In this document: piece by piece, positions 22,154-55,649 of the stretch
Numbering within the stretch: the first letter of the stretch is position 1
How the letters are laid out: each line of letters starts with the position of its first letter
NCBI GenBank assembly: GCA_903813345.2
Contig: CAIIXF020000010.1
Location: forward strand, 30,190,828-30,254,827
Reading direction: 5' to 3'
DNA from: Owenia fusiformis
Taxonomy: Eukaryota > Annelida > Polychaeta > Sabellida > Oweniidae
Length of the DNA stretch: 64,000 bases
Notes under the pieces: generated by a model
What the model was told of the DNA's origin: nothing
What the model saw: only the letters and a program-made list of their open reading frames with translations
The model's database searches: none
Made by a program: the position numbers and the translations under genes

Positions 22154-24145
22154 ATGAAAGCAGGTAATAGTAATAGTAACAGTAGTAGTAATAGTGGAAA
22201 TGGATCAAGTAGAAGGAGACAGAAGGTAATCACATCTTTAATCAAGAACACTCTCACTGCAACTGAAAAACAACAACTTTCTCAACATGTAACTGAAATA
22301 CACAACTTGGTTAAACTGAAACACAGCCAAGAAGACATAGACAGCCATGTACAGTATATCAGGACTCGTGTTATACAACCAATCCTTGATAAATTCAACA
22401 AAATGCACCCAGCACTAGCAGTGGATGATGTACTACTGAATGGAAGCATGTCAAATAAAAGTAAAATAGAATCTCCTAATGAGATTGATTATATTCTCCC
22501 AATGGCTCTCTCCAGATATGTAGTGATCTCAGAAAGAGGTCTATATAGAGGTCAGTTAGATGTAGGAATACCTGATGAATGTCACAATGATTTACTAAAT
22601 CTCACTAAGAAACATCCAGATTTAATAGAATTAGGCAATTCACTTAATTCAGGATATTTATTTTGGGAAATTATACATAAAGCTGTTGCAGAGTGTTTGT
22701 CACAACTACACACTGAGGGTGTACTGATCTACAAGGGAATGGAATCTCTATGGAGGAAGCCTGTAGAATCATCTCAGCTGGAAGAGAATGCAGTCATCCT
22801 GCATAATGAACCACATGGTCCCTGCATCCAACTCAGGGTATGGGGACCATTGTGTGTGACAGACATAGACATTGCATTCTGTCTGAAAATACTCAATATG
22901 CCTCAGCTGCCTCATACAGAGGATAATTTCTTTATGGCATTGCCTATGAGATATAAATGGGAGAAATCATTCTATGAGAAACCAGACTTGCGAGCATCCA
23001 GGATAGATGAACATCATAGGATTATACTGAGAACACTGAAATATATTCTATCACAGTATGAGAAGACACTTGATAAAACATGGTTACATTCACATGCACT
23101 ATTCACCATAGTAAGATACCATCAGGATCAATGTGATAACAATGCAGGTTCACCATCTATTGCTGAATGTTACAGTGACATCTCACACAATCTATATAAG
23201 CTGTTGCTAGAATCTGTAGAGAATACAACACAGGTTGAAGTAAGTTATAAATTGCTTGAAGATCTCTTTGATAAAGACTGTCCTGATATGTATATCTATC
23301 AATCAGGTGGTCTTATTGATGATGAAAGTATTGAAACAAGAGTATTCCTACTTGCTGTGTACATCCTACCAGAACTTCTGAAATCATCACATATAAGTTC
23401 TCCTGAGATCTCCTGTGAATATCTGCAGCTGATGTTTGAAGAGTGTGAGTTAGAATACAAGAGACAAGTGGTACTGCAGAATCCAAGCAAAACACTTACA
23501 TTTAGTGAGAAGGAAGAGATCTCATCTGTAGAGAATGTGATGGGATTAGGAAAATATGATTATTATAAATATGATTTAGGTGATTTAGATGATTTTTATG
23601 GTTTTTTTGATTATGATTATTATGATGATTATGATGGTTATGATGGTTATGATTATAATGATTATTCAGTTATGGTTGATACAGAGGTAATTCTGTCAAG
23701 ACTGAAACCTAAGATAACCTCATTGCAATCAAACATTCATTCTCATAGTGACCCCAGTGAATGTGAATCTGATACTGAGCCAAATAAGACACACTTATCT
23801 CAAACAGGACTTCACCATGTTATATACCAGGATATGCAAGCTGAACATTCCTTCCATGTTATATACACAAAAAACAAGGCAGGATTCCTGCAGCATATGG
23901 TAGACTTGTTTAAAACTCAAGGCATTGAGTCTGAGCCAATTTACAGAAATACTGAATTTGAGGAACAATGTAATAGTCATCAAAAGTGCTCAAAATGTGG
24001 GGAAAGTAACCATGTGACTAGTTCATGTTGGTGGCTTAAACCTGTGAGATGTTTCCGATGTAATCAGCTTGGACATAAGAGGAAATTATGCCATCATAAA
24101 ACTGAATTAAACATTCAAGTTGTGAAAATTGCAAGATTAACTTAG
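22154..24145 (+). CDS. cGAS/Mab-21-like nucleotidyltransferase with two CCHC zinc knuckles (paralogue 1)
   Basis: A single-exon frame of 663 codons starting at ATG. Seen in the sequence: a polar Ser/Asn N-terminus with a basic patch (SSRRRQK, 18-24); a helix leading to the nucleotidyltransferase signature Gly97-Ser98, then Glu110-x-Asp112 (PNEIDYIL); the third acidic site Asp237/Asp239 (CVTDIDIAF); a Mab-21-like helical lobe (about 260-440); an Asp/Tyr tract (486-504); and two CX2CX4HX4C knuckles, Cys612-Cys615-His620-Cys625 and Cys633-Cys636-His641-Cys646. Known for the fold: two-metal synthesis of cyclic or linear oligonucleotides after ligand binding, as in cGAS and animal cGLRs. The triad looks complete, so an active enzyme is likely. 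The knuckles suggest nucleic acid binding; that is inference. A one-base difference from paralogue 3 extends the C-terminus by about 17 residues past the last knuckle. Substrate and ligand are unknown. Confidence 0.85.
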   Translation: MKAGNSNSNSSSNSGNGSSRRRQKVITSLIKNTLTATEKQQLSQHVTEIHNLVKLKHSQEDIDSHVQYIRTRVIQPILDKFNKMHPALAVDDVLLNGSMSNKSKIESPNEIDYILPMALSRYVVISERGLYRGQLDVGIPDECHNDLLNLTKKHPDLIELGNSLNSGYLFWEIIHKAVAECLSQLHTEGVLIYKGMESLWRKPVESSQLEENAVILHNEPHGPCIQLRVWGPLCVTDIDIAFCLKILNMPQLPHTEDNFFMALPMRYKWEKSFYEKPDLRASRIDEHHRIILRTLKYILSQYEKTLDKTWLHSHALFTIVRYHQDQCDNNAGSPSIAECYSDISHNLYKLLLESVENTTQVEVSYKLLEDLFDKDCPDMYIYQSGGLIDDESIETRVFLLAVYILPELLKSSHISSPEISCEYLQLMFEECELEYKRQVVLQNPSKTLTFSEKEEISSVENVMGLGKYDYYKYDLGDLDDFYGFFDYDYYDDYDGYDGYDYNDYSVMVDTEVILSRLKPKITSLQSNIHSHSDPSECESDTEPNKTHLSQTGLHHVIYQDMQAEHSFHVIYTKNKAGFLQHMVDLFKTQGIESEPIYRNTEFEEQCNSHQKCSKCGESNHVTSSCWWLKPVRCFRCNQLGHKRKLCHHKTELNIQVVKIARLT

Positions 24146-26021
24146 ATACAATGTACATAGAATGCCAACAAGTGAATAACAGTGTGATTTGCAGTCCAAT
24201 ATAACAGGACATTTATGCAATTATTTCCTATTAGGATACATTTTGCACCTGCCCCCTTCTTTGATATATGAAATATTTGAAACTATGGCATAATTTCAAT
24301 GATAGCAGCACTGATGAAAACCCAAGCAGAGAGGATAATCAAACAACTGTTCGTTGGGATAATTAGCACTCATGGCATGAGTGCTCATGAGCGTGCTTTT
24401 GCCAGAGTGCTAATTTAATACTAATTTTGTGCTAACTGAGTACTCTGCATATCTCCCTGTGTACTTGTCATAACTGAAAGGCAAGTATCAATGTTAAGGC
24501 CATATCATGATATACTTATTGTTAATTAATAAGTATTAAAGTCTTCAAATGTACATGTATCTTGTAGGGTAGAACACCCCTAAACTTTCATCTTTTTTGA
24601 AGAAAGAGGAGCTATCAACTCTATTTCATTAAGAAACTACTGTAGCTGTATTCACACCATGAAAAATTCTTAAAATGTATATAAAAAGAACACATGGGAG
24701 TCAAAGAATAAACAGATTATCCTATGATCTGCTAATGTATCTACTACTCAGATTAGTGGTGTCAATTAACCGCTTGAGCATTAACCGGTTAACCGGGGGT
24801 TTTTATCGGTTAAAGTCGGTTAACCGGCGGGAAATTTGAACTGATAATTTCAAATGAAATCTTCATCTTCGATCTTGAAAGTTGAAAAAAATTGGAAAAA
24901 TGATATACCGGCGTTTATTCGTCAAGCTTTACTCTGTTCTATGTAAGCAAGCGCGGGAAAGCAATGTGGCAGGAATTAAAGTTGCTGATTGGATGTTTGT
25001 AAGGAATTATCGGACCTATCACATGTATGAGTAGCTCACATGAAACTGACGCTTGAAAAACAAACAGATTAAAATGCAAAGTAAGCGCGGGAAAGCAATG
25101 TGGCAGGGATTAAAGTTGCTGATTGGATGTTTGTAAATAGTTATAGGACTTATGACATGTATGAGTAGCTTACGTGAAACTGACACCATAAAACCAAACG
25201 GATTAGCATGCAAAATAAGCGGGGGAAATAACAGAAGTATACACGGTCAACTAACCGCCCATAAAAACACAGACCGGTCAAGGCATTATCGGCGGTTAAC
25301 CGGTTAACCAGTTAATACTTGACACCTCTAACTCAGATCATTAAATAAATATTTCTAACATATATATACTTTACTGTACTATAATTTATTTAAGTTTGTG
25401 ATGGCAATTCAAATGTCAAATGTTTTACAGTGTTAGTGGTAGCCATTGAAGTTTCTGGTTCCAGGGATGCAGCTTAGTTAAAAAATTTGAGCCCCATCTA
25501 TTTTTTGTATCTCATATTTAGTTTCAGTTTTGAGTTGTTTAGTTTTTTATATTTCGCATATTTGTAAATTCATGTGAGAAGCATTCGTGAAAAGTATCAA
25601 GCAAAAACCTGAAGAAAAAATTTAGGAGTACCTACATAACTGTTAGAACATAATTATGTGCTTATAAATATGCCATGAGATATTTGAAGATCCTAAACCA
25701 TGAGCACAATTGGTAAAAGGTACTTTGATTTATTTTCAAAAACTTGTGTTTGTGCATAATACATGTCCAGGTATCCATATCGATTTCGAAATATTTCTAA
25801 ACACATTGGAGCCTATCAAATTTTGCTTCAGACAACAAAACATGATTCTTTGGTAGCCAATCAGATTTGCTGATATAAACACACCCAGGTCGAGTAACAG
25901 TGACCTGAATGTGATGTTAAATCTTTGCATTCCAGGGTGTAATTTATTTCTGATTTTCAGGTTATTAAAATCTTTTTCTTGAATTCCTGAGAAAATGAAA
26001 CAAGGCACAGACATGAACAAT
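24146..26021 (+). repeat. Downstream flank of gene 1, shared with 49.3-50.9 kb and partly 62.6 kb
   Basis: 24146-24340 matches the 3' flank of gene 3 (55660-55905). From about 24350 the sequence matches 49330-50080 and 50540-50880 almost base for base (for example 'ggcaagtatcaatgttaagg'), apart from inserted elements. This is part of the segmental duplication carrying the sensor genes. The first part may be the 3' UTR. Confidence 0.8.
24754..25330. mobile_element. hAT-type MITE with 8-bp target duplication
   Basis: A 577-bp element with termini TAGTGGTGTCAA and TTGACACCTCTA (inverted, one mismatch). It is flanked by actcagat on both sides (24746-24753 and 25331-25338). The duplicated copy at 49725-49732 has the empty site (actcacat), so insertion came after the duplication. 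GGTTAACCGG-type subterminal repeats and two internal direct copies of about 110 bp (from about 24950 and 25085) are present. No transposase. The 8-bp duplication and TAG-type ends fit hAT. Confidence 0.85.
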
Positions 26022-29000
26022 ATCGTACCTAAAACACAGCATTATGGTCTCGTTGACCAAGAAAGCAAGATGGCCGTAGAAAAGTTAATCAGCTCTAGAA
26101 CTTATCACTGTGTAACATATGTAAAAATTTGAACGGTTTGGCTGGAAACCTGTAGACAAGTCTTGAAAGTGAAGATTTTAGGACGGAAAATCCAAAATGG
26201 CCACCTTAAATTTACCCAGAATGCCCAAAAACCAATCAGTTCTTGACGTTGATATGGAGAAACATCCCTGAAAATTTCAGATGAATCCCTCAAATGGTCT
26301 GGCTGAAAATCTGTAGACAAGTCTTGAAAGTGAAGATTTTAGGACAGAAAATCCAAAATGGCCACCTTTAAATTTACCCAGAATGCCCAAAAACTAATCA
26401 GTTCTTGACGTTGATATGTAGAAACATCCCTGAAAATTTCAGATGAATTCCTCAAATGGTTTGGCTGAAAACCTGTAGACAAGTCTTGAAAGTGAAGATT
26501 TTAGGACGGAAAATCCAAAATGGCCACCTTAAAATTTACCCAGAATGCCCAAAAACTAATCAGTTCTTGACGTTGATATGTAAAAACATCCCTGAAAATT
26601 TCAGATGAATCCCTCAAATGGTTTGGCTGGAAACCTGTAGACAAGTCTTGAAAGTGAAGATTTTAGGACGGAAAATCCAAAATGGCCACCTTAAGATTTA
26701 CCCAGAATGCCCACAAACTAATCAGTTCTTGACGTTGATATGTAGAAACATCCCTGAAAATTTCAGATGAATCACTCAAATGGTTTGGCTGAAAACCTGT
26801 AGACAAGTCTTGAAAGTGAAGATTTTAGGACGGAAAATCCAAAATGGCCACCTTAAAATTTACCCAGAATGCCCAAAAACTAATCAGTTCTTGACGTTGA
26901 TATGTAGAAACATCCCTAAAATTTTCAGATGAATCCCTCAAATGGTTTGGCTGGAAACATGTAGACAATACTTGAAAGTGAAGATTTTAGGATGGAAAAT
27001 CCAAAATGGCCACCTTAAGATTTACCCAGAATGCCCAAAAACTAATCAGTTCTTGATGTTGATATGTAGAAACATCCCTGAAAATTTCAGATGAATCCCT
27101 CAAATGGTTTGGCTGGAAACCTGTAGACAAGCTGAAAAGTGAGACGCCGCCCGCCTGCCGCCCGCCCGCCGCCCGTCAAGCTGACTACAATATCGTACCT
27201 TTTGTTAGGTACGATAAACAAGGCACAGAAGTGAACAATATCGTACCTAAAACACAGCAGTGTGAAAGTGAAGATTTTAGGACGAAAAATCCAAAATGGC
27301 CACCTTAAAATTTACCCAGAATGCCCAAAAAGTAATCAGTTGTTAACTTTGATATGTAGAAACATCCCTGTAAATTTCAAATGAATCCGTCAAATGGTTT
27401 GGCTGGAAACCTGTAGACGAGTCTTGAAAGTGAAGATTTTAGGACGGAAAATTCAAAATGGCCACCTTAAATTTTACCCAGAATGCCAAAAAAACTAATC
27501 AGTTCTTAACTTTGATACGTAGAAACATCCCTGAAAATTTCAGATGAATCTGTCAAATGGTTTGGCTGGAAACCTGTAGACAAGTCTTGAAAGTGAAGAT
27601 TTTAGGACGGAAAATCCAAAATGGCCACCTTAAAATTTACCCAGAATGCCCAAAAACTAATCAGATGTTAACTTTGATATGTAGAAACATCCCTGAAAAT
27701 TTCAAATGAATCCGTCAAATGGTTTGGCTGGAAACCTGTAGACAAGTCTTGAAAGTGAAGATTTTAGGATGGAAAATCCAAAATGGCCACCTTAAATTTT
27801 ACCCAGAATGCCAAAAAACTAATCAGTTCTTAACTTTGATACGTAGAAACATCCCTGAAAATTTCAGATGAATCCGTCAAATGGTTTGGCTGGAAACCTG
27901 TAGACAAGTCTTGAAAGTGAAGATTTTAGGACGGAAAATCCAAAATGGCCACCTTAAAATTTACCCAGAATGCCCAAAAACTAATCAGTTCTTGACGTTG
28001 ATATGTAGAAACATCCCTGAAATTTTCAGATGAATCCCTCAAATAGTTTGGCTGGAAACATGTAGACAATACTTGAAAGTGAAGATTTTAGGATGGAAAA
28101 TCCAAAATGGCCACCTTAAGATTTACCCAGAATGTCCAAAAACTAATCAGTTCTTGATGTTGATATGTAGAAACATCCCTGAAAATTTCAGATGAATCCC
28201 TCAAATGGTTTGGCTGGAAACCTGTAGACAAGCTGAAAAGTGAGACGCCGCCCGCCTGCCGCCCGTCAAGCTGACTACAATATCGTACCTTTTGTTAGGT
28301 ACGATAAACAAGGCACAGAAGTGAACAATATCGTACCTAAAACACAGCAGTGTGAAAGTGAAGATTTTAGGACGAAAAATCCAAAATGGCCACCTTAAAA
28401 TTTACCCAGAATGTCCAAAAACTAATCAGTTCTTGATGTTGATATGTAGAAACATCCCTGTAAATTTCAAATGAATCCGTCAAATGGTTTGACTGGAAAC
28501 CTGTAGACAAGTCTTGAAAGTAAAGATTTTAGGACGGAAAATTCAAAATGGCCACCTTAAATTTTACCCAGAATGCCAAAAAACTAATCAGTTCTTAACT
28601 TTGATACGTAGAAACATCCCTGAAAATTTCAGATGAATCTGTCAAATGGTTTGGCTGGAAACCTGTAGACAAGTCTTGAAAGTGAAGATTTTAGGACGGA
28701 AAATCCAAAATGGCCACCTTAAAATTTACCCAGAATGCCCAAAAACTAATCAGTTGTTAACTTTGATATGTAGAAACATCCCTGTAAATTTCAAATGAAT
28801 CCGTCAAATGGTTTGGCTGGAAACCTGTAGACAAGTCTTGAAAGTGAAGATTTTAGGATGGAAAATCCAAAATGGCCACCTTAAATTTTACCCAGAATGC
28901 CAAAAAACTTATCAGTTCTTAACTTTGATACGTAGAAACATCCCTGAAAATTTCAGATGAATCCGTCAAATGGTTTGGCTGGAAACCTGTAGACAAGTCT

Positions 29001-30507
29001 TGAAAGTGAAGATTTTAGGACGGAAAATCCAAAATGGCCACCTTAAAGGATGTGTCTGGGTATATGCCCTTTTGGTCCCTCAGTCAAATGTATGTGAAAT
29101 ATGCTTTTTATTACTGTCAGTTATATTTGATAAGTATATTTACTTTTTTCACGAGTTTTGATGCATAATTAACCCCCTGCTGAGAGTCAGAATAAGTATC
29201 TTAACAAAAAAAAATAGTCATTATCATAGAAAAAACACCAATGGCAACATGTATGACTTACAAAGAAGAAATAACTTAAAACCCATGAAGAATTTAAAAG
29301 AAAACCATATTTTTGAAATAAATTTAAGGATTAAAATATTTTTCAAATTTTTGAATTTCCCGCCAAATTAATTTGAAGGGGGAAAAACAAGATGGCTGCC
29401 ATTTGATGTAAGAAATATCAGAAAAAAAGTTGCTTCACTTTTAGTTTTCACAATGAGCACAGTTTTCCGGTTTAGGTTTTTTGACTGATTCTGACTCCTC
29501 ATCACCAGGGTCATGTATAGAGATTATAAAATTGAAACCAAAATGTTGTGCTCAGCATGAATTTGACTGAAATATGCGTAACTTCACCAACACAATTGAA
29601 GTCTCAAAACTTGATGCTCAGTAACTTTGAGTGACTATAATCCCTTGATTACCCAGATAAACACCAATTCACTTATCCAGAAATACCATTCAATGTCTAT
29701 ACAAAGAAAGTAAGCAATGTTTTGGAGGATATGTTTCAAACCTTTTGTATAAATAATTCATTTAATATTTGCCATTGATTTTTTTTTCAAATCTGACAAA
29801 GTCGTATGCACTGTCTTTGATGCCAATATTCTTCATTAATTGTGATACAAATTGATATTTTTGTACTCTCAGAAGAAGGATACGATATTGAAGTTTAATA
29901 ATATGTGTGATTGAGTTGGTTTTTCAGACATTACAATTTTCAATATTTTCGAAGTCGATACCCAGACTCATTCCCAGACTCATCCTTTTACCCAGAATGC
30001 CAAAAAACTAATCAGTTCTTAACTTTGATACGTAGAAACATCCCTGAAAATTTCAGATGAATCCGTCAAATGGTTTGGCTGGAAACCTGTAGACAAGTCT
30101 TGAAAGTGAAGATTTTAGGACGGAAAATCCAAAATGGCCACCTTAAAATTTACCCAGAATGCCCAAAAACTAATCAGTTCTTAACTTTGATACGTAAAAA
30201 CATTCCTGAAAATTTCAGATGAATCCATCAAATGGTTTGGCTGGAAACCTGTAGACAAGTCTTGAAAGTGAAGATTTTAGGACGGAAAATCCAAAATGGC
30301 CACCTTAAAATTTACCCAGAATGCCCAAAAACTAATCAGTTCTTAACTTTGATACGTAGAAACATTCCTGAAAATTTCAGATGAATCTGTCAAATGGTTT
30401 GCCTGGAAACCTGTAGACAAGCTGAAAAGTGAGACGCCACCCGCCGCCCGCCCGCCCGCCGCCCGTCAAGCTGACGACAATATCGTACCTTTATTAGGTA
30501 CGATAAA
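26000..30507 (+). repeat. Three tandem ATC-hairpin elements carrying about 162-bp monomer arrays
   Basis: Each unit starts with AACAAGGCACAGA...AACAAT then ATCGTACCT (26022, 27240, 28330). It runs through 162-bp monomers (spacing of 'aggac' measured as 161, 162 and 162 bp at the left), then a GCCGCCC microsatellite, and ends in the hairpin ATCGTACCT-loop-AGGTACGAT (27192-27215, 28282-28305, 30482-30504). Monomers contain AAAATGGCCACC. The duplicated copy near 50880 lacks all of it. Size and layout recall bivalve satellites of about 160 bp, but identity is untested. The small open frames are repeat read-through. Confidence 0.85.
29048..29985. mobile_element. 938-bp inverted-repeat element inserted in the array
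   Basis: The array breaks exactly between 'ccaccttaaa' and 'ttttacccag'. The inserted piece starts GGATGTGTCTGGGTAT and ends with AGACTCATCC preceded by GATACCCAGACTCAT, giving short inverted ends (GGATGWGTCTGGG). No target duplication is obvious and no transposase is present. Confidence 0.65.
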
Positions 30508-32708: not shown

Positions 32709-34511
32709 ATGATAATGGGAGCAGGTAGTAGTAATAGTAACAGTAGTAGTCATAGTGGAAATGGATCAAGTAGCAGTAGTAGCGATAGTTCAGACTCAGA
32801 GAGTCCTGTGGTAAACACATCGTTAATCAAGAGCACTCTCACTACAACTGAAAAACAACAGTTATCTCAACATATAACTGAATTACACAACTTGGCTAAA
32901 CTGAAACACAGCCAGAAAGACATAGACAGCCATGTACAGTATATCAGGACTCGTGTTATACAACCAATCCTTGATAAATTCAACAAAATGCAACCAGCAT
33001 TAGCAGTGGATGATGTACTACTGAATGGAAGCATGTCAAATAAAAGTAAAATAGAATTTCCTAATGACATTGATTTTGTTCTCCCAATGGCTCTCTCCAG
33101 ATATGTAGTGATCTCAGAAAAAGGTTATAGAGGTTGGTTACATGTAAAGTTACCTGATGCTCCTCACACTGATTTACTAAATCTCACCAAGGAACATCAA
33201 GAGTTAATACCATATGGCAATTCACTAAATACAGAATATTTAACTAAGAGTATTATACATAAAACTGTTGCAGAGTGTTTATCACAACTACACACTGAAG
33301 GTGTACTGATCTACAAGGGAGAGAAAGATCTAAAGTATAAGCCTGTAGAATCATCCCAGCTGGAAGAGAATGCAGTCATCCTGCATAATGAACCACATGG
33401 TCCTTGCATCCAACTCAGGGTGTGGGGACCATTGTGTGTAACTGACATAGACATTGCATTCTGTCTGAAAATACTCAATATACCTAAGCTGCCTCATACA
33501 GAGGACAACTTCTTTGTGGCATTGCCTATGGGATTTGACTGGGTGAAATCATTCTATGAGAAACCACACTTGCGGGCATCCAGGATAGATGATCATCATA
33601 GGATTATACTGAAAACACTGAAATATATTCTATCACAGTATGAGAAGACACTTGATGTTTATGATAAAACAGAGTTACATTCCCATGCACTATTCACCAT
33701 AGTAAGATACCACCAGGAGCAATGTGATAACAATGCAGGAGAACCATCTATTGCTGAATGTTACTGTGACATCTCACACAATCTATGTAAGCTGTTGCTA
33801 GAATCTGTAGAGAATACAACAGAGGTTGAAGTAAGTGCTAGATTGCTTGATGATCTCTTTGATAAAGACTGTCCTGATATGTATATCTATGAATCAGGTG
33901 GTGATGGTATATATATGAGCATTGAAACAATATTATTCCTACTTGTCATGTACATTCTGTCAGAACTACTGAAATCATCACGTATAAGTTCTCCTGAGTT
34001 CTACTGTGAATATCTGGAACTGGTGTTTAGAGAGTGTAAGCTGGAATGCAAGAGACAAGATATACTGCAGAATCCAAACAGGAAGCTTACACCTAGTGAG
34101 AGGGAGGAGATCTCAAATGTAGAGGATATGAAGGAATTATTGAAATTTTATAATGATGATGATTATTCAGCTGTGGTTAATACAGAGAGAATTCTGTCAA
34201 AACTGAAACCCAAGATAATTTTATTGGAATCATTGACTTGTAGAGGTTGTTTTGAAATTAACCATATAAGGACCAGTGCATGCTGCTTTTGTGACTTTGT
34301 ATTATGCTATAAGTGTAATTCAAAATGTAAATATATGCTGTGTTCATCATGCTTAAGCAACCTAGCAAGTTCTGGTGTATCTGAGGACACATTTGAGTTA
34401 TATTCTTCATACAACCTTACAATCCCATCAGGATCAAAGGAACCCCCAACATCAAATGAATCTGAGGATGCACCTGCACTAAAAAAAAAAAAAATGAAAA
34501 AATCAACATGA
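32709..34511 (+). CDS. cGAS/Mab-21-like nucleotidyltransferase with a distinct Cys-rich C-terminus (paralogue 2)
   Basis: A single-exon frame of 600 codons starting ATG ATA ATG, as in gene 3. The core is close to paralogues 1 and 3: Gly107-Ser108, Asp120-x-Asp122 (PNDIDFVL, so the first metal ligand is Asp rather than Glu), Asp246/Asp248, then the helical lobe. Both ends differ. The N-terminal basic patch is replaced by a Ser/Asp stretch (about 20-33). After the shared LKPKI (about 502) the tail is new: Cys511-x2-Cys514, Cys525/526-x-Cys528, Cys533-x2-Cys536, Cys540, Cys545-x2-Cys548, then a Ser/Pro-rich region and a lysine-rich end. The CCFCDFVLCYKC stretch loosely resembles ZZ or treble-clef fingers; that is a guess. 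There is no CCHC knuckle and only a vestigial Asp/Tyr tract. It is probably an active or recently diverged sensor with altered localisation or ligand. Confidence 0.82.
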   Translation: MIMGAGSSNSNSSSHSGNGSSSSSSDSSDSESPVVNTSLIKSTLTTTEKQQLSQHITELHNLAKLKHSQKDIDSHVQYIRTRVIQPILDKFNKMQPALAVDDVLLNGSMSNKSKIEFPNDIDFVLPMALSRYVVISEKGYRGWLHVKLPDAPHTDLLNLTKEHQELIPYGNSLNTEYLTKSIIHKTVAECLSQLHTEGVLIYKGEKDLKYKPVESSQLEENAVILHNEPHGPCIQLRVWGPLCVTDIDIAFCLKILNIPKLPHTEDNFFVALPMGFDWVKSFYEKPHLRASRIDDHHRIILKTLKYILSQYEKTLDVYDKTELHSHALFTIVRYHQEQCDNNAGEPSIAECYCDISHNLCKLLLESVENTTEVEVSARLLDDLFDKDCPDMYIYESGGDGIYMSIETILFLLVMYILSELLKSSRISSPEFYCEYLELVFRECKLECKRQDILQNPNRKLTPSEREEISNVEDMKELLKFYNDDDYSAVVNTERILSKLKPKIILLESLTCRGCFEINHIRTSACCFCDFVLCYKCNSKCKYMLCSSCLSNLASSGVSEDTFELYSSYNLTIPSGSKEPPTSNESEDAPALKKKKMKKST

Positions 34512-38472: not shown

Positions 38473-38489
38473 TAACCAGGCAGATTTGA

Positions 38490-40470: not shown

Positions 40471-42359
40471 ATGCCTAAATGCTGCGTTGCTGTTGAATGT
40501 TCGAATAGAGAACAAGTCGGCATTACGTTTTATCGCTTTCCGAGTGACAAGAAGTCACCTGTAAAAAGAAAGCTATGGATAAATGCTGTAAAAAGGCAAA
40601 ACTGGGAACCAAAAGAACACGATCGACTTTGCAGCGCTCATTTCTTGTCAGGTACAGTGTAGTAATCGAAACAGACCTGGTTTTCTAAATAATAAGTAAA
40701 ATAAAATTTTATTAATTATAAAGTTATCAGTAAATAATGCACATTTAAATACCACGCATTGTGTTAATACCGCTATCATTAAACACGAGGGAAGTAGGCC
40801 TATGTAAGTAATATTATGTGACTGTCGGTGAGCCACGTTGATTTTCACGGGTATTTCTGCATGTACTTTTTATGGAGAAAACTAAGAACTTAAAATAAAC
40901 CTTTGTAATATTTGTTTGGATATTGATGTGCGCTTCACTCGAATATCAATCATAGTGTTTCCACCCCGTTTTAATTTTTAAAATTGAGATCCCTTTCTAA
41001 CATTGATATTTCACACAGAAAAAAATGATTGAGACCATGGCGTACATGACATGGGTATATACAAATCCACTTATTTATCAAACACATATTTTCAGGACAA
41101 AAGTCAAATATTGAAGATCATCCCGACTTCATTCCCTCTGTCTTTTCGTACAAATCTAGCAAGGAGATCGAGAGGAAGCGAAAGAGCTTACATGCATATG
41201 AACGTCATGCCTCAAAGAGATGCAGAGTCACGAATATTGTTAAGTGTGAAACATTCGACACGTTCACTGGTACGAGTGTTGGTACACAGACCGACCTTTC
41301 TTGTTCCGAGTTGGATAATATTATGTGAGAAGTGATGGACCTAAAACGTGAAAACACGGAATTAAAGGAAAAGAGCAGACTCTGTACTACATTAAGAAAT
41401 GAACTTGAGACACTCAAATCCGAGAACAACCACTTACAGCAAGAGATTCGAAACCTAGAAATTAACGAGGAAACGTTTAAAATAACGAAAACAAACTGAA
41501 ATATTATACCGGGTTGCCAACATTTGCAGTCTTTTTGGCTCATCTTAACATGATAATTGGACACCTGGTCCCCAGAGCAACCATGAGTAAATCTTCCCAA
41601 TTCATATTAACCTTGATGAGACTTCGTCTAAATCTTGGCACTCACGATTTAGCATACCGCTTTAACATCGATCAATCTACAGTTTCACGAATATTCTCTC
41701 ACGTAATCGATGTTTGCAACGCAAGACTTGTACCTGTACTTGTTAAATGGCCGAATGACTTATTGAATCTTCGGGCTACACTACCACGGTCGTTTTTAGG
41801 GGCATTTAGTAAGTGTGTTGGTATCATAGACTGTTTTGAAATTTTCATTGAAAAGCCAAAGGACCTTGATGCTCGAGCAACAACATATAGTCACTATAAA
41901 TCGAACAATACAATCAAATATCTTATCGCAATTGCACCCCAAGGCGTTGTGACTTTTGTTTCCAAAGGTTGGGGAGGACGTGTTAGTGACAAACATTTAA
42001 CTGATAATTGTGGTCTTCTAGAGAAGCTTCAGCCAGGAGACTTAATACTTGCAGACCGTGGTTTTGACATACAAGATCTTGTTGGACTTCATGGTGCAAA
42101 AGTAGAAATCCCAGCTTTCACAAGAGGAAAATCGCAATTAAGTTTGTACGAGGTGGAATCTACCAGAGGATTAGCCTCTGTTCGAATACACATTGAGAGA
42201 GTTATTGGTTTAGTCAGGAGCAAGTACACAATGCTTAGTGCAAAAATACCAATATCACTCCTTCAAACAGATGAAACAACTGGGCTTACTACTCTAGACA
42301 AGGTGGTTTTTGTTTCCAGTGCCCTGTCAAATACATGTGAATCAGTTGTACCATTTTAA
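40471..42359 (+). pseudogene. ISL2EU transposase (THAP, coiled coil, HTH, DDE), disrupted
   Basis: Exon 1 (40471-40651) encodes a THAP zinc finger: Cys5, Cys10, Trp36, Cys54-x2-His57. It splices in phase to an exon starting at 41096. That exon encodes a linker, a coiled coil (ENTELKEKSRLCTTLRNELE), a helix-turn-helix (STVSRIF) and a DDE_Tnp_4 domain with the acidic triad in IIDCFE, LADRGF and HIERVIG. Two lesions break it: an in-frame TGA at 41326-41328, where CGA would fit (a CpG transition), and a -1 shift in the A-run at about 41479-41482 that puts the DDE part (readable from 41514) in another frame. A small extra intron hiding either lesion cannot be fully excluded. As read, the transposase is dead. 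Confidence 0.8.
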
Positions 42360-43137: not shown

Positions 43138-46008
43138 TTATATGTTGATTTTCTTTGCTTTTCTACATTCTGGACAAACCCAAGACTTCCTTGATGTTGT
43201 GAGTTTCATGCACTTTAAGTGAAATTTTGATATCGCACAATTTTTATTCTTGCAAATAATTATCTCGCCATTTCCAGTTTCTTGCCTGCACATGCAAATG
43301 GCATCAAGGGTTAAGCTTAGATTATTTGATAAATACTGTTGAGTGGTGTCTCTGGTGAACCATTTGCAGCATAATTCAGGCATTATCGAAGTGAGGTACA
43401 CATGCTTGACTTTGATAGTGTTTTCCTCATAAAATTTAAGGTCTGGAAGCAATCTCTGATAATAAAATTCTTTTTCAGTCCACACAACTATGTCTCCATA
43501 GCTAGCTTTACATGAAAATATCTGGAGTTGCAACTGGAAGTAGTACTGGTGATCTGTTTTTAATCCAATAATCTCACCATTTGCATTTCGAACTAAGCAG
43601 CTAGAGTCCCTGTCAGCTTCATCTGACAAAGTACCATGGCAAGAACAATATGGACATTTGATCTCCAACACTCCCTTCCCACAGCAATTGCAGCTAATGA
43701 CACCGTCAGGTGAGGCACCCATATATGGGAACTCATGATTGATCACAAATCCAGATTGTAACACGCTGAAGTCCTTGTGTAAGGGCTTAGCATGATTGAT
43801 GAACTGTTGCCTTGCTGTTTCCTCGTGCTCACACCCCCACCTGGAAGAGATGAAGATAGCATTTTAATTTAACTTAATTTGGTGATGTTTCATTGAATTT
43901 TTCTTACGATTCTCAAATGACAAATATTGGCGAAGTTTTATCTGCATGAATCAATACATATATCCTATCTGATATTTTAGCTAACTTGATTTTATTGATT
44001 TAGACATGATTCTCTACACAGGTGCATGATTTAAGGTTAAATATTACATGTATTTGTCTGTTAAAACATGGAGCTGCTAAATGTCTCTAATACATTGTGT
44101 ATTAAACAAGAACTTGTGGAATATATGGGATACAATTCATCAATCCTTAGAAACACGTTAATTCTATTATCATTCATGTAATATTTCAAATGGTCTCACC
44201 TCGTGGCCTTAGAATTAAACTTCATCTTCTCAGGGTAGCACACCTGCTTGATTAATGACATTGCAGGGCAGTCTGGGTTGGTACGGGCAGCCCGTTTAAA
44301 TATTGATGCTGTCACCCTTCCCGCTCGATGACTGTACCATGTACTGTTTGATTGGCATCTTGTGGTCTCTTCTAAAGCTGCAGCCTAAATTTAAATAATC
44401 AAAAGTGCACAGTCTTTGTATGTCTGCATGAAATATCAATACCCATACATTCATTTCATTTATATATTTAGGAGGATTAGATACATTATTGATAAGGTCG
44501 CCGCAGACGGATTAGGTGTGAACGAAATCGAATACCGGTACATTATTTGTATGGTCAGACATATATACTTGTAGTTTTGTGAGAAAAAATCTGATCGTTT
44601 GAATCTGAAATTAAACATTACATACCTGGATGGGATCATAAGTTATTTTCTGCAATAGATCCTCACACTTAACCAACAGGTCGGGAAATGTCAATGGCTG
44701 CAAATCCGGGTCAAATAATAAGTCAGGTATCGTTTTAGGCAAGTTTACCAATACAGGACGTGGGACAAATGACTTGGAGTATTCTGGTATCAGGCTGAGT
44801 ATGGCACACTTAGTTCCACTACTGTTCAAATCACTGTAGAATTTATTAGTCTCTTCTTCTGTGGGTCCTGGTATTTTATCACTTTTGCGAGTCTTGCGTG
44901 TTGGTGCTGTTGATGGAGCACACATTGCTGTTCTTTTGTGGGATGGGCTTGAAAACTCTATGTCACTCCCTGGTCTGTATGAAACAGGTTTGTCAGATAC
45001 GCTGCTCCACTCACATGGAACTGAGGTACAGGACTGACGAGCTACATTTATGACTCTTGTCTCCAACGCAAATAGAGTTGCTGCAATGTGTGAGCATGCC
45101 TCCCCTAGACCTGCCATGCAGGTACAATGAGCACATATCACCTCCCCACTAGGATGCACAGCTATCCACGGTTCCAGTGGTGTTTTATTTAGTGCCTGAG
45201 AATGGTATACCTGTAATCATATAATTATTATTCGATGATACCAATTCTTCACGACATGACCTCGTAGGCCTAAATATGGATACAATTTAATTTAAATCTA
45301 GCTAACGTGTAAGGCAATTGATACACTGGATCGCAATCGAAAGTTGGTTATTTGTTTACAACTAGATGTACAAAAACATCTGTACAATAAATCAGGTCAG
45401 TATACATCGACCACTGTCCGACTTAGTTGTTTACTATGTAGCAACTTTGACCTGTTGAAAGACAAACTGACATATGCAGTGCAGCCCACACTGACTCGAT
45501 TTTCAAACGGTAGTGACCGTGAGGAGTGGAGAGAGGACGTTGGTTACATTTATCAACAATTAAAATCATTCAACAAAAATCGTAGAGGAGGCTTTGGACC
45601 GAAGTAAACTTAGAAAAGTGAGATAACATCTTGGCGTACAAACCTTACCTTAGCTAGAATAACAAGAGATCCCGATGTACATCTATATGTAAGTACATTT
45701 CTTACATAACCAGCAACAAGGTACTGATATCCCTCAAGCGATTTGTAGGCCTTCAAGGTCTGTCCGTTGAACAACTTGCTAGGCGTATTGATCAGGTACT
45801 GGTAAATATCTCCAAAACTATAATCCGGGAGATTCTTTTTTGAAAGTGACATTAATCCAATTAATTTATTGCGATCAATGCTATACGGGTCAACCCCGTC
45901 CAAAGGTTCAATTTTTGTTATATATCGATTCAGACTTTCATGATCTAACTTAGATATTTGAGACGATTTCCTCGTAGAAGAAACAGTTGTTGTTTTGCTT
46001 TCCGCCAT
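43138..46008 (-). CDS. ISL2EU accessory protein: SWIM zinc finger, YqaJ nuclease, PHD finger (four exons)
   Basis: Exons 46008-45649, 45210-44626, 44384-44200 and 43840-43138 join in phase over GT-AG introns into 610 residues with no lesion. Domains: N-terminal region (1-120); SWIM finger Cys149-x-Cys151...Cys159-x-His161 (HCTCMAGLGEACSH); YqaJ-like PD-(D/E)XK nuclease starting about 330 (YSHRAGRVTASIF), with Asp422 in GASPDG, Glu436-x-Lys438 in LEIKCP and a Gln-rich motif (YYFQLQLQIF); C-terminal C4HC3 PHD finger (about 560-605). It is the known partner of the ISL2EU transposase, thought to process DNA ends during transposition, but its exact role is not established. That it is intact while the transposase is broken is notable. 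Confidence 0.85.
45344..45607 (+). other. Unexplained small open frame in an intron of the YqaJ gene
   Basis: An 87-codon frame beginning at TTG rather than ATG, on the strand opposite the YqaJ gene and wholly inside its first intron. The composition looks protein-like (SDREEWREDVGYIYQQLKSF). It could be an exon of a third transposon transcript, a leftover of captured DNA, or chance. No family recognised. Confidence 0.25.
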
Positions 46009-49020: not shown

Positions 49021-49054
49021 TCTCATTTACTCCTGGCAGTCTTAGTGCATTGTT

Positions 49055-49440
49055 TACACAGGGAGATATGCCGAGTGCTAAAATAGTACTCGGCATATTA
49101 GCGCTCATTGAGTAGTCATTTCAGTAAATATTAGTACTTAATGAGCACTCATGACATGAGTACCCCTTTGTTGCATGTTTTAGGACTAAATGAGTACTTA
49201 ATGATAAGTCACAAAATAGCAATTATTTCATTGATTTTTTAGCGCTAAATTGGTAATCATATCATAGGTGATAAAATAGTACTAATAAGATTGATTTTTC
49301 AGCACTAGATGAGTACTCATATCATAAATTAGTAATTAATTAGCACTCATGGCATGAGTACTCATGAGCGTGCTTTTGCCAGGGTGCTAATTTAGTACTA
49401 ATTTTGTGCTAACTGAGTAATCAGCATATCTTCCTGTGTA
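49055..49440. mobile_element. 386-bp MITE with TACACAGGGAGATATGCCGA ends
   Basis: Left TACACAGGGAGATATGC and right GCATATCTTCCTGTGTA are inverted. The interior is a series of AGTACTCAT / ATGAGTACT words, giving internal dyads. A right-hand fragment of the same element lies at about 24363-24463. Confidence 0.65.
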
Positions 49441-51922: not shown

Positions 51923-52514
51923 ACTAGAAAAACAGCAACTCCACGGAGTAGCAAATCCCACCGAACAAAACATATTATGCTTCTTTATAGCTAGTGTAAA
52001 TGTTGAAATGTTTGTGCAATTTGTGATAGAAGAATGAAATTTGGCACAAAGTTAGTTTATACCATTGTGAACTAGGCATCATCATATAAAATTTGAACCA
52101 AATCCGTTCACTGGTATATGAGTTAACAAAGATTACGTTTTTTTACGAAAATTGGCCGCCATCTTAAAATTCAGCCGCCATCTTGAAAATTATTTCTTGA
52201 ACATAGCTACTGTGTCTCTAAGCATCATCATATACAATTTGAACCAAATCCGTCAATTGGTATTGGAGTTATCGCCCGGACGGAAGGATGGACAGACGGA
52301 TGTCATTTGTTATTGCTGCATTGGTTTCTTCATTCGTTGTCTTCTTTCTTTGTCTTCTTTCTTTGTCTTGATTTGATTGTGATTTTGGTTATCTTTCTTC
52401 AGGGTCCACAGACTTGAGACTGCGCGTAGGTGGGTTAAACGTTTTGATATGGACGGACGGATGGACGGACGGACGGCTTCTCTATATCCCCCTCGAACTT
52501 CGTTCGGTGGGATA
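51923..52514 (+). mobile_element. ATC-hairpin element 4 (complete, with empty site)
   Basis: 592 bp inserted in the sequence 'gacata|ataaaccc', which is uninterrupted at 31225-31236 and 63820. Left end ACTAGAAAAACAGCAACTCC with hairpin ACTCC-ac-GGAGT, then ATCCCACCGAAC. It holds AAAATTGGCCGCC and CCATCTTGAAAAT blocks, a GGACGGACGG microsatellite, and the terminal hairpin ATCCCCCTCGAAC-ttc-GTTCGGTGGGAT. Any target duplication is at most 3 bp (ata). Non-coding. Confidence 0.75.
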
Positions 52515-53319
52515 ATAAACCCAACATTAGATCATTTCTAGTGATATCAATTTATTGCCTTGTAGATAACAAATATCAACACTCATCATTTGCTTCGATC
52601 ACTTGTGTTGATATTTAATAACAACTCATCGATAAAATTGATATCACTCAAAATGATCTGATATATGTATATATCAACATTTTGATCCATTTGAAACGTT
52701 TATTTGTGTAAAGTTATAATAGTTATCACATCTTAAATGCGTCAAATATGCTAGGCAAAACATTCCCTTTTTACTTGAGATTAAATTCTTAACAGGAAAA
52801 AACAAAATGAGTGTCAATGCCAAATGCCTATGAGCATGACAATACCTAAAAAACATGTTTCCAATATTAAACTATAGGTTTTTGGTTGATATATTACTAT
52901 TGATATATTACTATGAAGTAAACAGTTCGATTGCCCTACTCTCTTTATTTAAAATTTTTTCTATCACCCTTCAGCCTATGTATTATACTGTAGAATCAGC
53001 TAACGTTTAAAATGTGTTTGTTCAAGGACTTTTATAAGTGGGATCAATACAACAAGGGACATTTCTCAATAGAAAGGGGATTCCCCGTTTTACTAATCGG
53101 AAATTCCAAATTTGTTCGAAAAACAAAGTGATTAATATTGAAATAGGATGTAAACTCTTAACTGCTTGGTATAAAAGTCATTGGATGAAGTCAAAGAACA
53201 TATAATAATTTCCTGGCTCCTGTTTGAATGTGAAGGTCTAAATATCATGAGGAAGGTACCTGAATTAATAAACAAAAAAGAACAGGCTTTAACATAAACA
53301 ATTATTTAATCAATACAAG
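52515..53319. other. Duplicated upstream DNA of gene 3
   Basis: Homologous to 31240-32363 with indels. No gene. Confidence 0.7.
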
Positions 53320-53639
53320 CTGTACTAGAATGAGCCCTCTAAGGATGGTAGGTGATGTCAATTATATTCTCAAATGCAGCCAAGTACATAGTACATTAAG
53401 ATAATTTATCTTATTAAATAAAAATGGGATATGTTGTTCCTGATTGTTCCTGTTGACTTTGCCTAATTAATATCATCATAATAGTGTGATGATATATAAT
53501 GCTTCAGACAGAATAACTTTATTTGAAATTCATCATACAGACATAAGTCCTCATACAAAGGGATTGCACCTTAAGACGTTAACGATTTGGAGTAAAAAGT
53601 TGGAATTAAATACAGTACATTTCACTCATTGCACATTAT
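53320..53639 (+). promoter_or_regulatory. Conserved upstream region of sensor gene 3
   Basis: Homologous to the other two upstream regions. 'cagacataag' at 53538 is 102 bp before the ATG and 'ttaagacgtta' follows. Likely promoter and leader. Confidence 0.55.
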
Positions 53640-55649
53640 ATGATAATGGAAACAGGTAGCAGTAATAGTAACAGTAGTAGTCATAGAGGAAATAGATCTA
53701 GTAGAAGGAGACAGAAAGTAATCACATCTTTAATCAAGAACACTCTCACTGCAACTGAAAAAAAACAACTTTCTCAACATGTAACTGAAATACACAACTT
53801 GGTTAAACTGAAACACAGTAAAGAAGACATAGACAGCCATGTACAGTATATCAGGACTCAAGTTATACAACCAATTCTTGATAAATTCAACAAAATGCAC
53901 CCAGCATTAGCAGTGGATGATGTACTACTGAATGGAAGCATGTCAAATAAAAGTAAAATAGAATTTCCTAATGAGATTGATTTTGTTCTCCCAATGGCAC
54001 TCTCCAGATATGTAGAGATCTCATATGGTTATAATGAAGGCTGGTTAGATGTATGGTTAGCTGATGATGAACCTCACATTGATTTACTAAATCTCACTAA
54101 GAAACATCCAAAGTTAATACTATATGGCAATTCACTATCTTCAAAATATTTAACTGAGAGTATTATACATGAAGCTGTTGCAGAGTGTTTATCACAACTA
54201 CACACTGAAGGTGTACTGATCTATAAGAGAAAGGAATTTCTGACATGGATGCCTGTAGAATCATTTCAGCTGGAAGAGAATACAGTCATCCTGCAAGAGA
54301 GACCACATGGTCCATGCATCCAACTCAGGGTGTGGGGACCATTGTGTGTAACTGACATAGACATTGCATTCTGTCTGAAAATACTCAATATACCTCAGCT
54401 GCCTCATACAGAGGACAGCTACTTTATTGGATTGCCTATGGGATTTGGATGGGTGAAATCATTCTATGAGAAACCAGATGTGCGAGCATCCAGGATAGAT
54501 GATCATCACATGATTATACTGAGAACACTGAAATATATTCTATCACAGTATGAGAAGACACTTCGTGATTATAAAACAGCGTTACATTCACATGCACTAT
54601 TCACCATAGTAAGACATCACCAAGAGCAATGTGATAACAATGCAGAAGATCCATATATTGCTGAATGTTACTGTGACATCTCACACAATCTATGTAAGCT
54701 GTTGCTAAGATCTGTAGAGAATACAACAGAGGTTGGAGTAAGTGACGATTGGCTTGAAGATCTCTTTGATAAAGACTGTCCTGATATGTATATTAATAAA
54801 TCAGTTGGTGATTATGTAAGCATTCTAACAAGAATATTCCTACTTGTTGTGCACATCCTACCAGAACTACTGACATCATCACATGTAAATTCTCCTGAGT
54901 TCTACTGTGAATATCTGAAGCTGGTATTTAAAGAGTCTGAGCTAGAATACAAGAGACAAATTATACTACAGAATCCATACTGGATGTTTACATCTAGTGA
55001 GAGGGAAGAGATCTCATCTGTAGAGGATGTGGAGGAATTAAGAGAATATGATAATGATGATTATGATGATTATGATTATTATGATGGTTATGATCGTGGT
55101 TATGATTATCCAGTTATGGTTGATACAGAGAGAATTCTGTCAAGACTGAAACCTAAGATAACCTCATTGCAATCAAACATTCAATCTCATAGCAGTGAAC
55201 CCAGTGCATGTGAGGCCAATACCAAGCCAAATTATACCCACTTTTTATCTCAAACATCCTCATTAGGATCTCACTTCACTGAACTAGTGCCTGCTGTCTC
55301 ACACCATTATTCTAACTCTGCTCCCATAACTTATCAATCATCCCAGACCCAAGCAGGACTTCACCATGTTATATACCAGGATTTGCAAGCTGAACATTCC
55401 TTCCATGTTATATACACAAAAAACAAGGCAGGATTCCTGGAGCATATGGTAGACTTGTTTAAAACTCAAGGCATTGAGTCTGAGCCAATTTACAGAAATA
55501 CTGAATTTGAGGAACAATGTAATAGTCATCAAAAGTGCTCAAAATGTGGGGAAAGCAACCATGTGACTAGTACATGTTGGTGCCGTAAACCTGTGAGATG
55601 TTTCCGATGTAATCAGCTTGGACATAAAAGGAAATTATGCCCATCATAA
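53640..55649 (+). CDS. cGAS/Mab-21-like nucleotidyltransferase with two CCHC zinc knuckles (paralogue 3)
   Basis: A single-exon frame of 669 codons from ATG ATA ATG. Layout as paralogue 1: basic N-terminal patch (SSRRRQK, about 20-26), Gly99-Ser100, Glu112-x-Asp114 (PNEIDFVL), Asp239/Asp241 (CVTDIDIAF), helical lobe, Asp/Tyr tract (about 471-490), a longer linker (about 512-575, Ser/Thr/His-rich) and two CX2CX4HX4C knuckles (Cys633-Cys636-His641-Cys646; Cys654-Cys657-His662-Cys667). It ends two residues after the last knuckle because of one extra C relative to paralogue 1. The putative catalytic residues are all kept. Residues 127-150 and 197-206 differ strongly from the paralogues, while the flanking stretches are nearly identical even at the DNA level. 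Likely an immune-type nucleotide second-messenger enzyme; ligand unknown. Confidence 0.85.
   Translation: MIMETGSSNSNSSSHRGNRSSRRRQKVITSLIKNTLTATEKKQLSQHVTEIHNLVKLKHSKEDIDSHVQYIRTQVIQPILDKFNKMHPALAVDDVLLNGSMSNKSKIEFPNEIDFVLPMALSRYVEISYGYNEGWLDVWLADDEPHIDLLNLTKKHPKLILYGNSLSSKYLTESIIHEAVAECLSQLHTEGVLIYKRKEFLTWMPVESFQLEENTVILQERPHGPCIQLRVWGPLCVTDIDIAFCLKILNIPQLPHTEDSYFIGLPMGFGWVKSFYEKPDVRASRIDDHHMIILRTLKYILSQYEKTLRDYKTALHSHALFTIVRHHQEQCDNNAEDPYIAECYCDISHNLCKLLLRSVENTTEVGVSDDWLEDLFDKDCPDMYINKSVGDYVSILTRIFLLVVHILPELLTSSHVNSPEFYCEYLKLVFKESELEYKRQIILQNPYWMFTSSEREEISSVEDVEELREYDNDDYDDYDYYDGYDRGYDYPVMVDTERILSRLKPKITSLQSNIQSHSSEPSACEANTKPNYTHFLSQTSSLGSHFTELVPAVSHHYSNSAPITYQSSQTQAGLHHVIYQDLQAEHSFHVIYTKNKAGFLEHMVDLFKTQGIESEPIYRNTEFEEQCNSHQKCSKCGESNHVTSTCWCRKPVRCFRCNQLGHKRKLCPS

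Follow-up and report, generated by a model that had tools for sequence, protein, structure and literature searches.

Candidate cGAS-like nucleotidyltransferases of Owenia fusiformis with zinc-knuckle tails most likely derived from a LINE ORF1

Overview of the candidate gene family

There are three intact single-exon paralogues, here called A, B and C, on the forward strand of a 64,000-nucleotide stretch of the Owenia fusiformis genome (hereafter the window), and they form a tandem set spanning positions 22154-55649. We lean towards the view that they are members of a lineage-expanded group of nucleotidyltransferases in the cGLR/Mab-21 superfamily, and that one subclade of this group probably acquired its double CCHC knuckle from the C-terminus of a LINE ORF1 protein. 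The union of a cGAS-like core with a double CCHC tail is plausibly a new architecture. The features of the three genes are listed in Table 1.

Table 1. Positions in the window of the three paralogues, their active-site motifs and their tail modules
Feature	Position	Strand	Description
Paralogue A	22154..24145	+	cGAS/Mab-21-like core, linker, two CCHC knuckles; 663 aa, one exon
A, Gly-Ser and E-x-D motif	22439..22489	+	NGSMSNKSKIE..PNEID, residues 96-112
A, third Asp	22856..22879	+	D239, in VTDIDIAF
A, double CCHC module	23987..24091	+	LINE-ORF1-like; residues 612-646
Paralogue B	32709..34511	+	Core as in A, D-x-D for E-x-D, most of linker gone, remodelled Cys-rich tail; 600 aa
B, Gly-Ser and D-x-D motif	33024..33074	+	PNDID
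B, third Asp	33438..33461	+	In VTDIDIAF
B, tail module	34239..34352	+	Cys-rich
Paralogue C	53640..55649	+	Core, linker, two CCHC knuckles; 669 aa
C, Gly-Ser and E-x-D motif	53931..53981	+	G99, S100, E112, D114
C, third Asp	54348..54371	+	D241
C, double CCHC module	55536..55640	+	

Gene copies and reading frames

An earlier note on this DNA had proposed three intact single-exon paralogues, and open reading frames running from ATG to stop were indeed found for A, B and C. B and C are 73% and 80% identical to A, respectively. A fourth copy, D, lies about 2 kb outside the window and carries its tail in a different frame. In a simulation of neutral drift (480 codons, 6.5% change), the probability that a copy stays free of stop codons was 0.02, and because all three copies are intact, their open frames appear to reflect more than chance. 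Every alignment gap within the first 1600 coding nucleotides has a length that is a multiple of three. Beyond this region, the tails of A and C differ by one single-base gap located immediately behind the last cysteine, and thus their C-terminal residues are not the same; A continues for 17 amino acids past this cysteine. Rfam and tRNA scans of the whole window gave no matches.

Homology of the core to cGAS and Mab-21 proteins

Evidence for the identity of the core comes from a family profile built from 38 members, all from the same genome as the window. When compared by hhalign with cGAS, cGLR1 and MAB21L1, this profile aligned over 263 columns (98.3%, E 1.4e-14), and the homology spans the nucleotidyltransferase core and reaches the helical lobe. 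A search of the PDB with the same profile yielded 41 matches (best E 1.8e-11), every one of which is a cGAS, cGLR or Mab-21-domain protein, including two that carry the title 'Uncharacterized' and one that we take to be pig cGAS. MAB21L1 (5eog) is missing from these 41 matches. The relationship to cGAS and Mab-21 that had been claimed for the core is therefore supported by this profile, and we assign the core to the superfamily on the basis of sequence comparison.

Individual searches reveal less. Pfam Mab-21 matches are present in 11 of the 38 family members (E up to 0.1, best 9.4e-10); the 32 places in the genome that exceed the Pfam cut-off for this domain include none of the window genes, and scans of the window proteins or their cores with Pfam, NCBIfam and PADLOC gave no Mab-21 or CD-NTase match. 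With an HMM made from cGAS, cGLR1 and MAB21L1, the window cores took ranks 1-3 among 3006 sequences, the others being shuffles and reversals. A profile restricted to A, B and C gave results that are superseded by those of the 38-row profile: the top two PDB matches of the restricted profile were cGAS (E 0.26 and 0.66) followed by an unrelated ligase (E 1.8), and hhalign gave 2.9% with a score of 25.8 that was reached by 2 of 200 shuffles. An AlphaFold2 model made from only three alignment rows had a pLDDT of 34. Among 152 pattern matches in IMG/VR there was no confirmed relative.

Putative active-site residues

The claim that the nucleotidyltransferase residues are kept is borne out in all three paralogues, each of which carries Gly-Ser, an E-x-D motif (D-x-D in B) and a third aspartate. 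NGS and VTDIDIAF are common to A, B and C, and PNEID is found in A and C where B has PNDID. In a 44-row family alignment, the columns hold G in 42 rows, S in 42, E in 40, D in 41 and the third Asp in 43. The E column contains Asp once, in B, and the remaining cells of the motif columns are gaps in fragments. Gly-Ser together with all three acidic residues is present in 41 of the 44 rows, the other three being gapped fragments.

Li et al. 2023 (PMC9980059) give the cGLR motif as h[QT]GS X8-20 [DE]h[DE]h X50-90 h[DE]h. In its strict form it fails in A, B and C, which have N at the Q/T position and a spacing of 123-124, and a relaxed form of it matches all three. The structure 8gjy, named cGAS-like receptor 1, has KGS at the Gly-Ser site, and the first position of the motif is therefore not fixed.

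The zinc thumb of vertebrate cGAS has the pattern H-x5-CC-x6-C. This pattern has no match in the window cores and is absent from 43 of the 44 family rows. Its lone occurrence, in B, lies by reading inside the tail and was taken as an accident rather than a zinc thumb, because the tail is rich in cysteine.

Tail modules and their probable source

As had been claimed, two of the copies (A and C) end in paired CCHC knuckles. B ends in a different cysteine-rich module. All eight zinc ligands are retained in open frame in A and C. The C tail scanned alone matches zf-CCHC (C-x2-C-x4-H-x4-C) with 26.1 bits against a Pfam cut-off of 20.8, and in the full-length proteins C (15.6 bits) and A (8.2 bits) both fall under this cut-off. 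The B module has no Pfam match and has copy D (42%) as the sole match found elsewhere in the genome. Given an abrupt change after position 34232, we initially saw no relationship between the B tail and the CCHC tails; this was dropped after alignment with D and with L010, a relative that, like B, has its cysteine-rich version in frame. In B, D and two distant relatives, the tail appears to be a remodelled form of the CCHC module. Among loci L001-L050 and the window, only seven genes carry the tail module, and it is out of frame in D, L005 and L013. The cores are acidic (pI 5.2-5.6) and the tails are basic (pI 9.1-9.3).

A genome-wide search with the tail matched dispersed copies (E 1.3e-9), and the seven that were identified comprise six LINE ORF1 ends (L051-L056) and one Gypsy Gag. 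Esterase matches of the GDSL or OSK type were found in all five ORF1s scanned, two of them exceeding the Pfam cut-off, and endonuclease matches over the cut-off were found in all four neighbouring ORF2s scanned. The knuckles of C share 54-60% identity over 38-42 amino acids with four of these LINE ORF1 copies, and 46% over 61 amino acids with a fifth. When scored against a comparator set made up of five LINE ORF1s, a single Gypsy Gag and the nucleocapsid of a single lentivirus, the C knuckles reached 136-149 with the LINEs versus 93 with Gypsy and 92 with the lentivirus; the respective values for A are 125-134, 76 and 86. The B tail alone is weakly LINE-like (39-54 versus 32 and 37). Beyond the zinc ligands, the tails and the LINE ORF1 knuckles have KCGE, CW, VRC and LGHK in common. 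Thus, among the seven places examined, the best tail matches outside the gene family are the C-terminal knuckles of LINE ORF1, and it is most likely, judging from these alignments, that the tails are derived from this source.

The recognizable ORF1 portion is only the last 40-60 residues or so. No match to four partial ORF2s was seen beside the genes, and A, B and C have no Pfam match to the esterase or capsid domain that a whole LINE ORF1 or Gag would bring. By the terms of the earlier note, its proposal would be undermined if a retroelement Gag or some other non-nucleotidyltransferase family turned out to be the closest match; the core is clear of any such match, and the tail shows one in part, by way of its LINE-ORF1-like knuckles.

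Divergence among the copies

Averaged over the core, dN/dS comes to about 1, a value that relaxed constraint would also fit. Alignment segments of 60 columns containing Gly-Ser and the third Asp have values of 0.23-0.64, versus 1.76-1.94 for the segment after the E-x-D motif (P 0.0065 for the contrast, with blocks picked after the data were seen). Between A and C, the last 82 shared tail codons differ at 2.4% of sites, which is less than the 3' flank (7.1%, P 0.022), the core (11.8%) or the 5' flank (23.5%). Four of the six nucleotide differences in the tail alter the protein, and therefore this comparison does not establish purifying selection on the knuckles. The low divergence of the tails could be due to gene conversion. 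With copies that change fast in some segments and tails that differ, the overall pattern may be likened to that of rapidly evolving immune receptors.

Possible function and alternative explanations

The acidic core alone would presumably be a poor binder of nucleic acid, and the basic tail might bind RNA or single-stranded nucleic acid, as is thought for the knuckles of ORF1p in element RNPs. The tail would then concentrate the enzyme on nucleic acid and license synthesis of a dinucleotide, which could be read by STING; there are 14 exon matches over the cut-off for STING_LBD in the same genome. Recruitment of RNA or DNA by the knuckles, as the earlier note suggested, would fit with a LINE origin, the acidic core and the basic tail. 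For the CCHC knuckle of one LINE ORF1, a role in RNA packaging is described in PMC4120745. A bolder and rather doubtful extension is that the LINE-derived zinc module serves as bait or as an address label, recruiting a cGAS-like enzyme to RNA-protein particles of retroelements (or viruses) for STING signalling, and that the tails of B and D are recognition modules diversified in an arms race.

It is also conceivable, though we consider it somewhat unlikely, that these proteins are catalytically dead Mab-21-like scaffolds that retain the fold and act as nucleic-acid-binding adaptors or in development. The departures from the strict motif and the Asp of B at a near-invariant Glu position are consistent with this, and there are precedents: shrimp Mab21 proteins are said to be antiviral despite lacking essential nucleotidyltransferase residues (PMC12928593), and a figure legend of PMC9980059 gives Mab21L1/2/3 as having no predicted functional active site, whereas the text of the same paper counts Mab21L1/2 with the human proteins whose putative sites are complete. 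However, the near-universal retention of Gly-Ser and the three acidic residues, the lower dN/dS around Gly-Ser and the third Asp, and the KGS of 8gjy all speak against a dead scaffold. Alternatively, the core might be that of an ordinary cGLR sensing some other, perhaps positively charged ligand, with the knuckles as a passenger on the way out. Acidic cGLRs have been proposed to answer to ligands other than nucleic acid (PMC9980059), and the scarcity of the module and its three out-of-frame occurrences point the same way. We regard this as unlikely given the eight intact ligands in A and C, tails that differ less than their 3' flanks, and the in-frame versions in B and L010.

Finally, the tail could have come from the Gag of an LTR retroelement or from a host CCHC protein rather than from a LINE. 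Knuckles of the CCHC type are short and generic, a lentiviral nucleocapsid comes first among the PDB matches of C (E 0.0065), and the origin was judged from seven identified places and from comparators that do not include host proteins. The score gaps of A and C and the shared residues outside the zinc ligands nevertheless make such a source very improbable. Capture from a LINE ORF1 by a putative enzyme remains our preferred explanation. cGLRs are a large family of animal receptors with few ligands known, and it has been proposed that the acidic ones do not sense nucleic acid (PMC9980059); a basic zinc module taken from a LINE would supply that ability. If true, immune enzymes can take parts from the mobile elements that they may guard against.

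Comparison with known systems

The main cGLR survey names fusions with ankyrin, TPR and death domains and multi-cGLR proteins in the passages covered; its main text, the domain table aside, makes no mention of 'zinc'. Among open-library papers, none was found that joins cGLR, cGAS-like or Mab-21 proteins with a zinc knuckle or a fused invertebrate zinc finger; in the accessible text of those that treat Mab-21 and cGAS, CCHC means ZCCHC3 (PMC7905024, PMC8660693, PMC7080523).

Like cGLRs and cGAS, A-C have Gly-Ser, E-x-D (or its variant) and a third Asp, with profile homology into the helical lobe, and they belong to a large lineage-specific expansion in a genome with STING-domain exons. Expansions of over 200 cGLR genes in some bivalves are given in PMC9980059. 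A-C differ from these proteins in the longer segment between the second and third Asp, NGS, the acidic core, the LINE-like zinc tail and cores that lack the cGAS zinc-thumb pattern. The window genes share a superfamily with Mab21L1 and the Mab-21 family, and 11 relatives are recognized by Pfam Mab-21; in contrast, the window genes escape this model, and the MAB21L1 chain, by reading, has no Gly-Ser where they show the Gly-Ser/E-x-D/D pattern.

The double CCHC signature of A and C is common to the C-termini of LINE ORF1 proteins that pair an esterase with CCHC knuckles. L1TD1 is a domesticated LINE-1 ORF1 and hence offers a partial parallel as a host gene built from a LINE ORF1; unlike A and C, it is not known to be a nucleotidyltransferase fusion. 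The arrangement proposed here would be a fused counterpart of human cGAS with ZCCHC3, a CCHC co-sensor that aids nucleic-acid binding by cGAS according to PMC7905024, PMC8660693 and PMC7080523. ZCCHC3 is a separate protein, whereas the knuckles of A and C are fused to the core and resemble those of LINEs.

Gene copies and genomic setting

The three intact single-exon paralogues claimed in the earlier note are indeed present as A, B and C, which are intronless open frames, and two of them, A and C, end as also claimed in paired CCHC knuckles (two copies each of C-x2-C-x4-H-x4-C). Relative to A, identity is 73% for B and 80% for C. A fourth copy, D, begins approximately 2.1 kb past the right edge of the window, wherein the core (the nucleotidyltransferase part) is open as a 577-amino-acid frame and the tail (the Cys-rich C-terminal part) lies in a different frame of 251 amino acids. 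With C as query against its own genome, there are at least 77 matching pieces on many contigs, with identity down to 23-25%. A large single open frame is found in most loci read, and stops break several. Relatives and counts are drawn from this one genome, whose assembly comprises 498 Mb in 525 contigs, some 12 of them chromosome-sized (C1-C12; 11 of these span 31.9-62.2 Mb). On this assembly the window occupies C10:30190828-30254827.

Arrays of a 162-bp tandem repeat lie between A and B (26135-30432), and relatives of these repeats are located at 11100-11807. The transposon-like genes at five window places include a DDE_Tnp_4 transposase, a YqaJ exonuclease-like gene and a zf-RVT fragment, together with QRICH1/DUF3504 and phage-integrase-like pieces below the Pfam cut-off.

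Paralogues and transposon-like genes in the window
Feature	Position	Strand	Basis
Paralogue A, intact intronless ORF	22154-24145	+	ORF reading
Paralogue B, intact intronless ORF	32709-34511	+	ORF reading
Paralogue C, intact intronless ORF	53640-55649	+	ORF reading
Transposon-like gene	41550-42359		Pfam
Transposon-like gene	13661-14437		Pfam
Transposon-like gene	12647-13072		Pfam
Transposon-like gene	43138-43863		Pfam
Transposon-like gene	17663-18229		Pfam

The core and its conserved residues

Single-sequence Pfam, NCBIfam and PADLOC scans of the window proteins did not recognise the core, and a three-row profile of A, B and C gave cGAS as its top match with an insignificant E of 0.26. An HMM of cGAS, cGLR1 (chain 8gjy) and MAB21L1 ranked the three cores 1-3 of 3006 (E 0.001-0.006), wherein the other sequences were shuffles and reversals (best E 0.31). 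A 38-row family profile (A4) that includes same-genome relatives matched the alignment of these three proteins at 98.3% (E 1.4e-14), and a PDB search with the family profile reached a best E of 1.8e-11. All 41 PDB matches are cGAS, cGLR or Mab-21-domain proteins, two of which carry the title 'Uncharacterized'; they include what we take to be pig cGAS, and MAB21L1 itself is absent from them. By homology, these same-genome relatives settle that the core is cGAS/Mab-21, which upholds the assignment made in the earlier note, and we infer a bilobal fold on the same basis. Of the Gly-Ser, (E/D)-x-D and D-x-D residues that the note described as kept, G99, S100, E112, D114 and the third Asp, D241 (C numbering), are near-invariant columns of a 44-row alignment (A5); at the first acidic position, B alone carries Asp instead of Glu.

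Pfam Mab-21 is reached by 11 of the 38 members at E <=0.1 (best 9.4e-10), and 32 genome places, none of them a window gene, exceed its cut-off. Clusters of such places at C4:22.3-24.9 Mb represent another branch of the family that has expanded.

Selection and divergence

Judged by their coding sequences, A, B and C are not pseudogenes. Every gap in the first 1600 aligned coding nucleotides has a length divisible by three. In simulation, a neutrally evolving copy with 6.5% change has a probability of 0.02 of containing no stop. There is one single-base gap, immediately 3' of the last Cys in the A/C tails.

Mean core dN/dS is 0.99-1.02 across the three pairs and is unevenly distributed. Where 60-column windows contain Gly-Ser and the third Asp, it is 0.23-0.64. 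Every pair has 1.76-1.94 in the window following the E-x-D motif; one helical-part window is mixed (1.07-1.91), and two of three pairs reach about 2 near the core end. Non-synonymous to synonymous changes are 55:9 in A 129-204 versus 38:21 in conserved blocks (P 0.0065, with blocks picked post hoc). This pattern fits a conserved catalytic site accompanied by fast-changing segments; relaxed constraint is also a possible reading. After the core, dN/dS is 0.48 (123 aligned codons), and across the last 82 shared tail codons A and C differ at 6 of 246 nucleotides, four of which alter the protein. Divergence between A and C rises from 2.4% in the tail to 7.1% in the 3' flank (P 0.022), 11.8% in the core and 23.5% in the 5' flank. 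The low tail divergence may reflect either constraint or gene conversion.

Tails resembling LINE ORF1 proteins

Scanned alone, the tail of C passes Pfam zf-CCHC. It has 88 genome matches, comprising paralogues and many dispersed places, with a best E beyond the gene family of 1.3e-9. Seven dispersed places (L051-L057) were identified; six are C-terminal parts of LINE ORF1s, and at L057 a Gypsy-type Gag is accompanied by a protease. All five scanned ORF1s match GDSL or OSK esterases, solely L054 and L056 above the Pfam cut-off (the L052 ORF1, nearly identical to that of L051, was left out), and all four scanned neighbouring ORF2s have endonuclease matches above cut-off. Identity of the C tail to L051, L053, L054, L055 and L056 is 60% over 42, 46% over 61, 54% over 41, 55% over 42 and 58% over 38 amino acids, and that of the A tail, in the same order, is 46% over 50, 31% over 127, 45% over 47, 53% over 40 and 61% over 36. 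Against a small non-LINE panel (one Gypsy and one lentiviral sequence, host CCHC proteins left out), the C knuckles score 136-149 locally with LINE ORF1s versus 93 with the Gypsy element and 92 with lentiviral nucleocapsid, and the A knuckles 125-134 versus 76 and 86. Four partial LINE ORF2s found no match within the window, nor in four further loci of this genome (L002, L005, L010 and L013). Because the module is widespread in LINEs and a single section of the gene family carries it, it appears to have moved from a LINE into the gene.

L051-L056 encode ORF1 proteins that join a GDSL/OSK-type esterase to two C-terminal CCHC knuckles. This is of possible interest because PMC3905857 describes esterase ORF1 proteins as being without structural RNA-binding domains.

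Cys-rich versions that align to the A/C module are found in D, L010, L013 (in another frame) and B. In pairwise comparisons of A, B, C, D and L010, none of 1000 shuffles holding Cys and His positions fixed matched the observed score, except for C-B (6) and D-L010 (2). B is the least certain of the remodelled tails; its local scores are 39-54 with LINEs versus 32 and 37 with controls, and elsewhere in the genome its version matches D only (42%). Scanning L001-L050 together with the window identified seven carriers: A, B, C, D, L010, L013 and L005, where the module is decayed and out of frame; other matches are marginal (E at least 0.035). A 43-row core tree sets A-D apart from the rest (support 0.96), with L010 and L013 more distant, where several supports are low. 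The simplest reading would be that the module was captured once, before L010 split off, with timing that is not firm, and was then repeatedly lost or remodelled.

Other family members have different additions. There is a long repetitive Ser/Pro/Glu tail at L005:559-3201 (-), and the decayed zinc module of this locus is located downstream of it in other frames. L015/L030 (C10:36335949-36337592) lies within an 1817-amino-acid open frame with many Ser-rich repeat copies of about 35 amino acids, ending ..PIIPEWLFT, N-terminal to the core. L047:1522-3603 has, by reading, several hydrophobic, membrane-like segments C-terminal to the core.

Possible function and comparison with known systems

The cores of A, B and C have a pI of 5.2-5.6 and a charge of -17 to -23, which makes them acidic and places them low in the pI range of the 41 family cores measured (4.7-8.7); the tails of A and C are basic (pI 9.3 and 9.1). 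A survey of cGAS-like receptors (cGLRs; PMC9980059) ties pI >8.5 to nucleic-acid sensing and proposes that acidic cGLRs respond to other ligands. The basic knuckle tail could supply nucleic-acid binding. There are 14 STING-domain (STING_LBD) exon matches above cut-off in the genome, two with an internal stop, which suggests several STING genes; because of these matches, a dinucleotide receiver is likely present. They lie at C7:10.96-12.83 Mb, C5:30.33 Mb and elsewhere, and some are clustered. Catalysis, ligand and pathway of A, B and C are predictions.

In earlier reports, the mammalian CCHC protein ZCCHC3 binds dsDNA and raises cGAS binding to dsDNA (PMC7905024, PMC8660693, PMC7080523), mRNA packaging by the LINE SART1 involves all three of its CCHC motifs (PMC4120745), and Gypsy element activity in locusts accompanies induction of cGAS-like receptors and STING (PMC13299631). 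Set against the strict cGLR motif of PMC9980059, the window genes have Asn in place of Gln/Thr ahead of Gly-Ser, and 123-124 residues rather than 50-90 precede the third Asp. Given these departures, the three genes are filed under the cGAS/Mab-21 superfamily and named cGLR-like. Gln/Thr at the first motif position is not absolute, however, since the cGLR1 chain 8gjy carries Lys where the window genes carry Asn.
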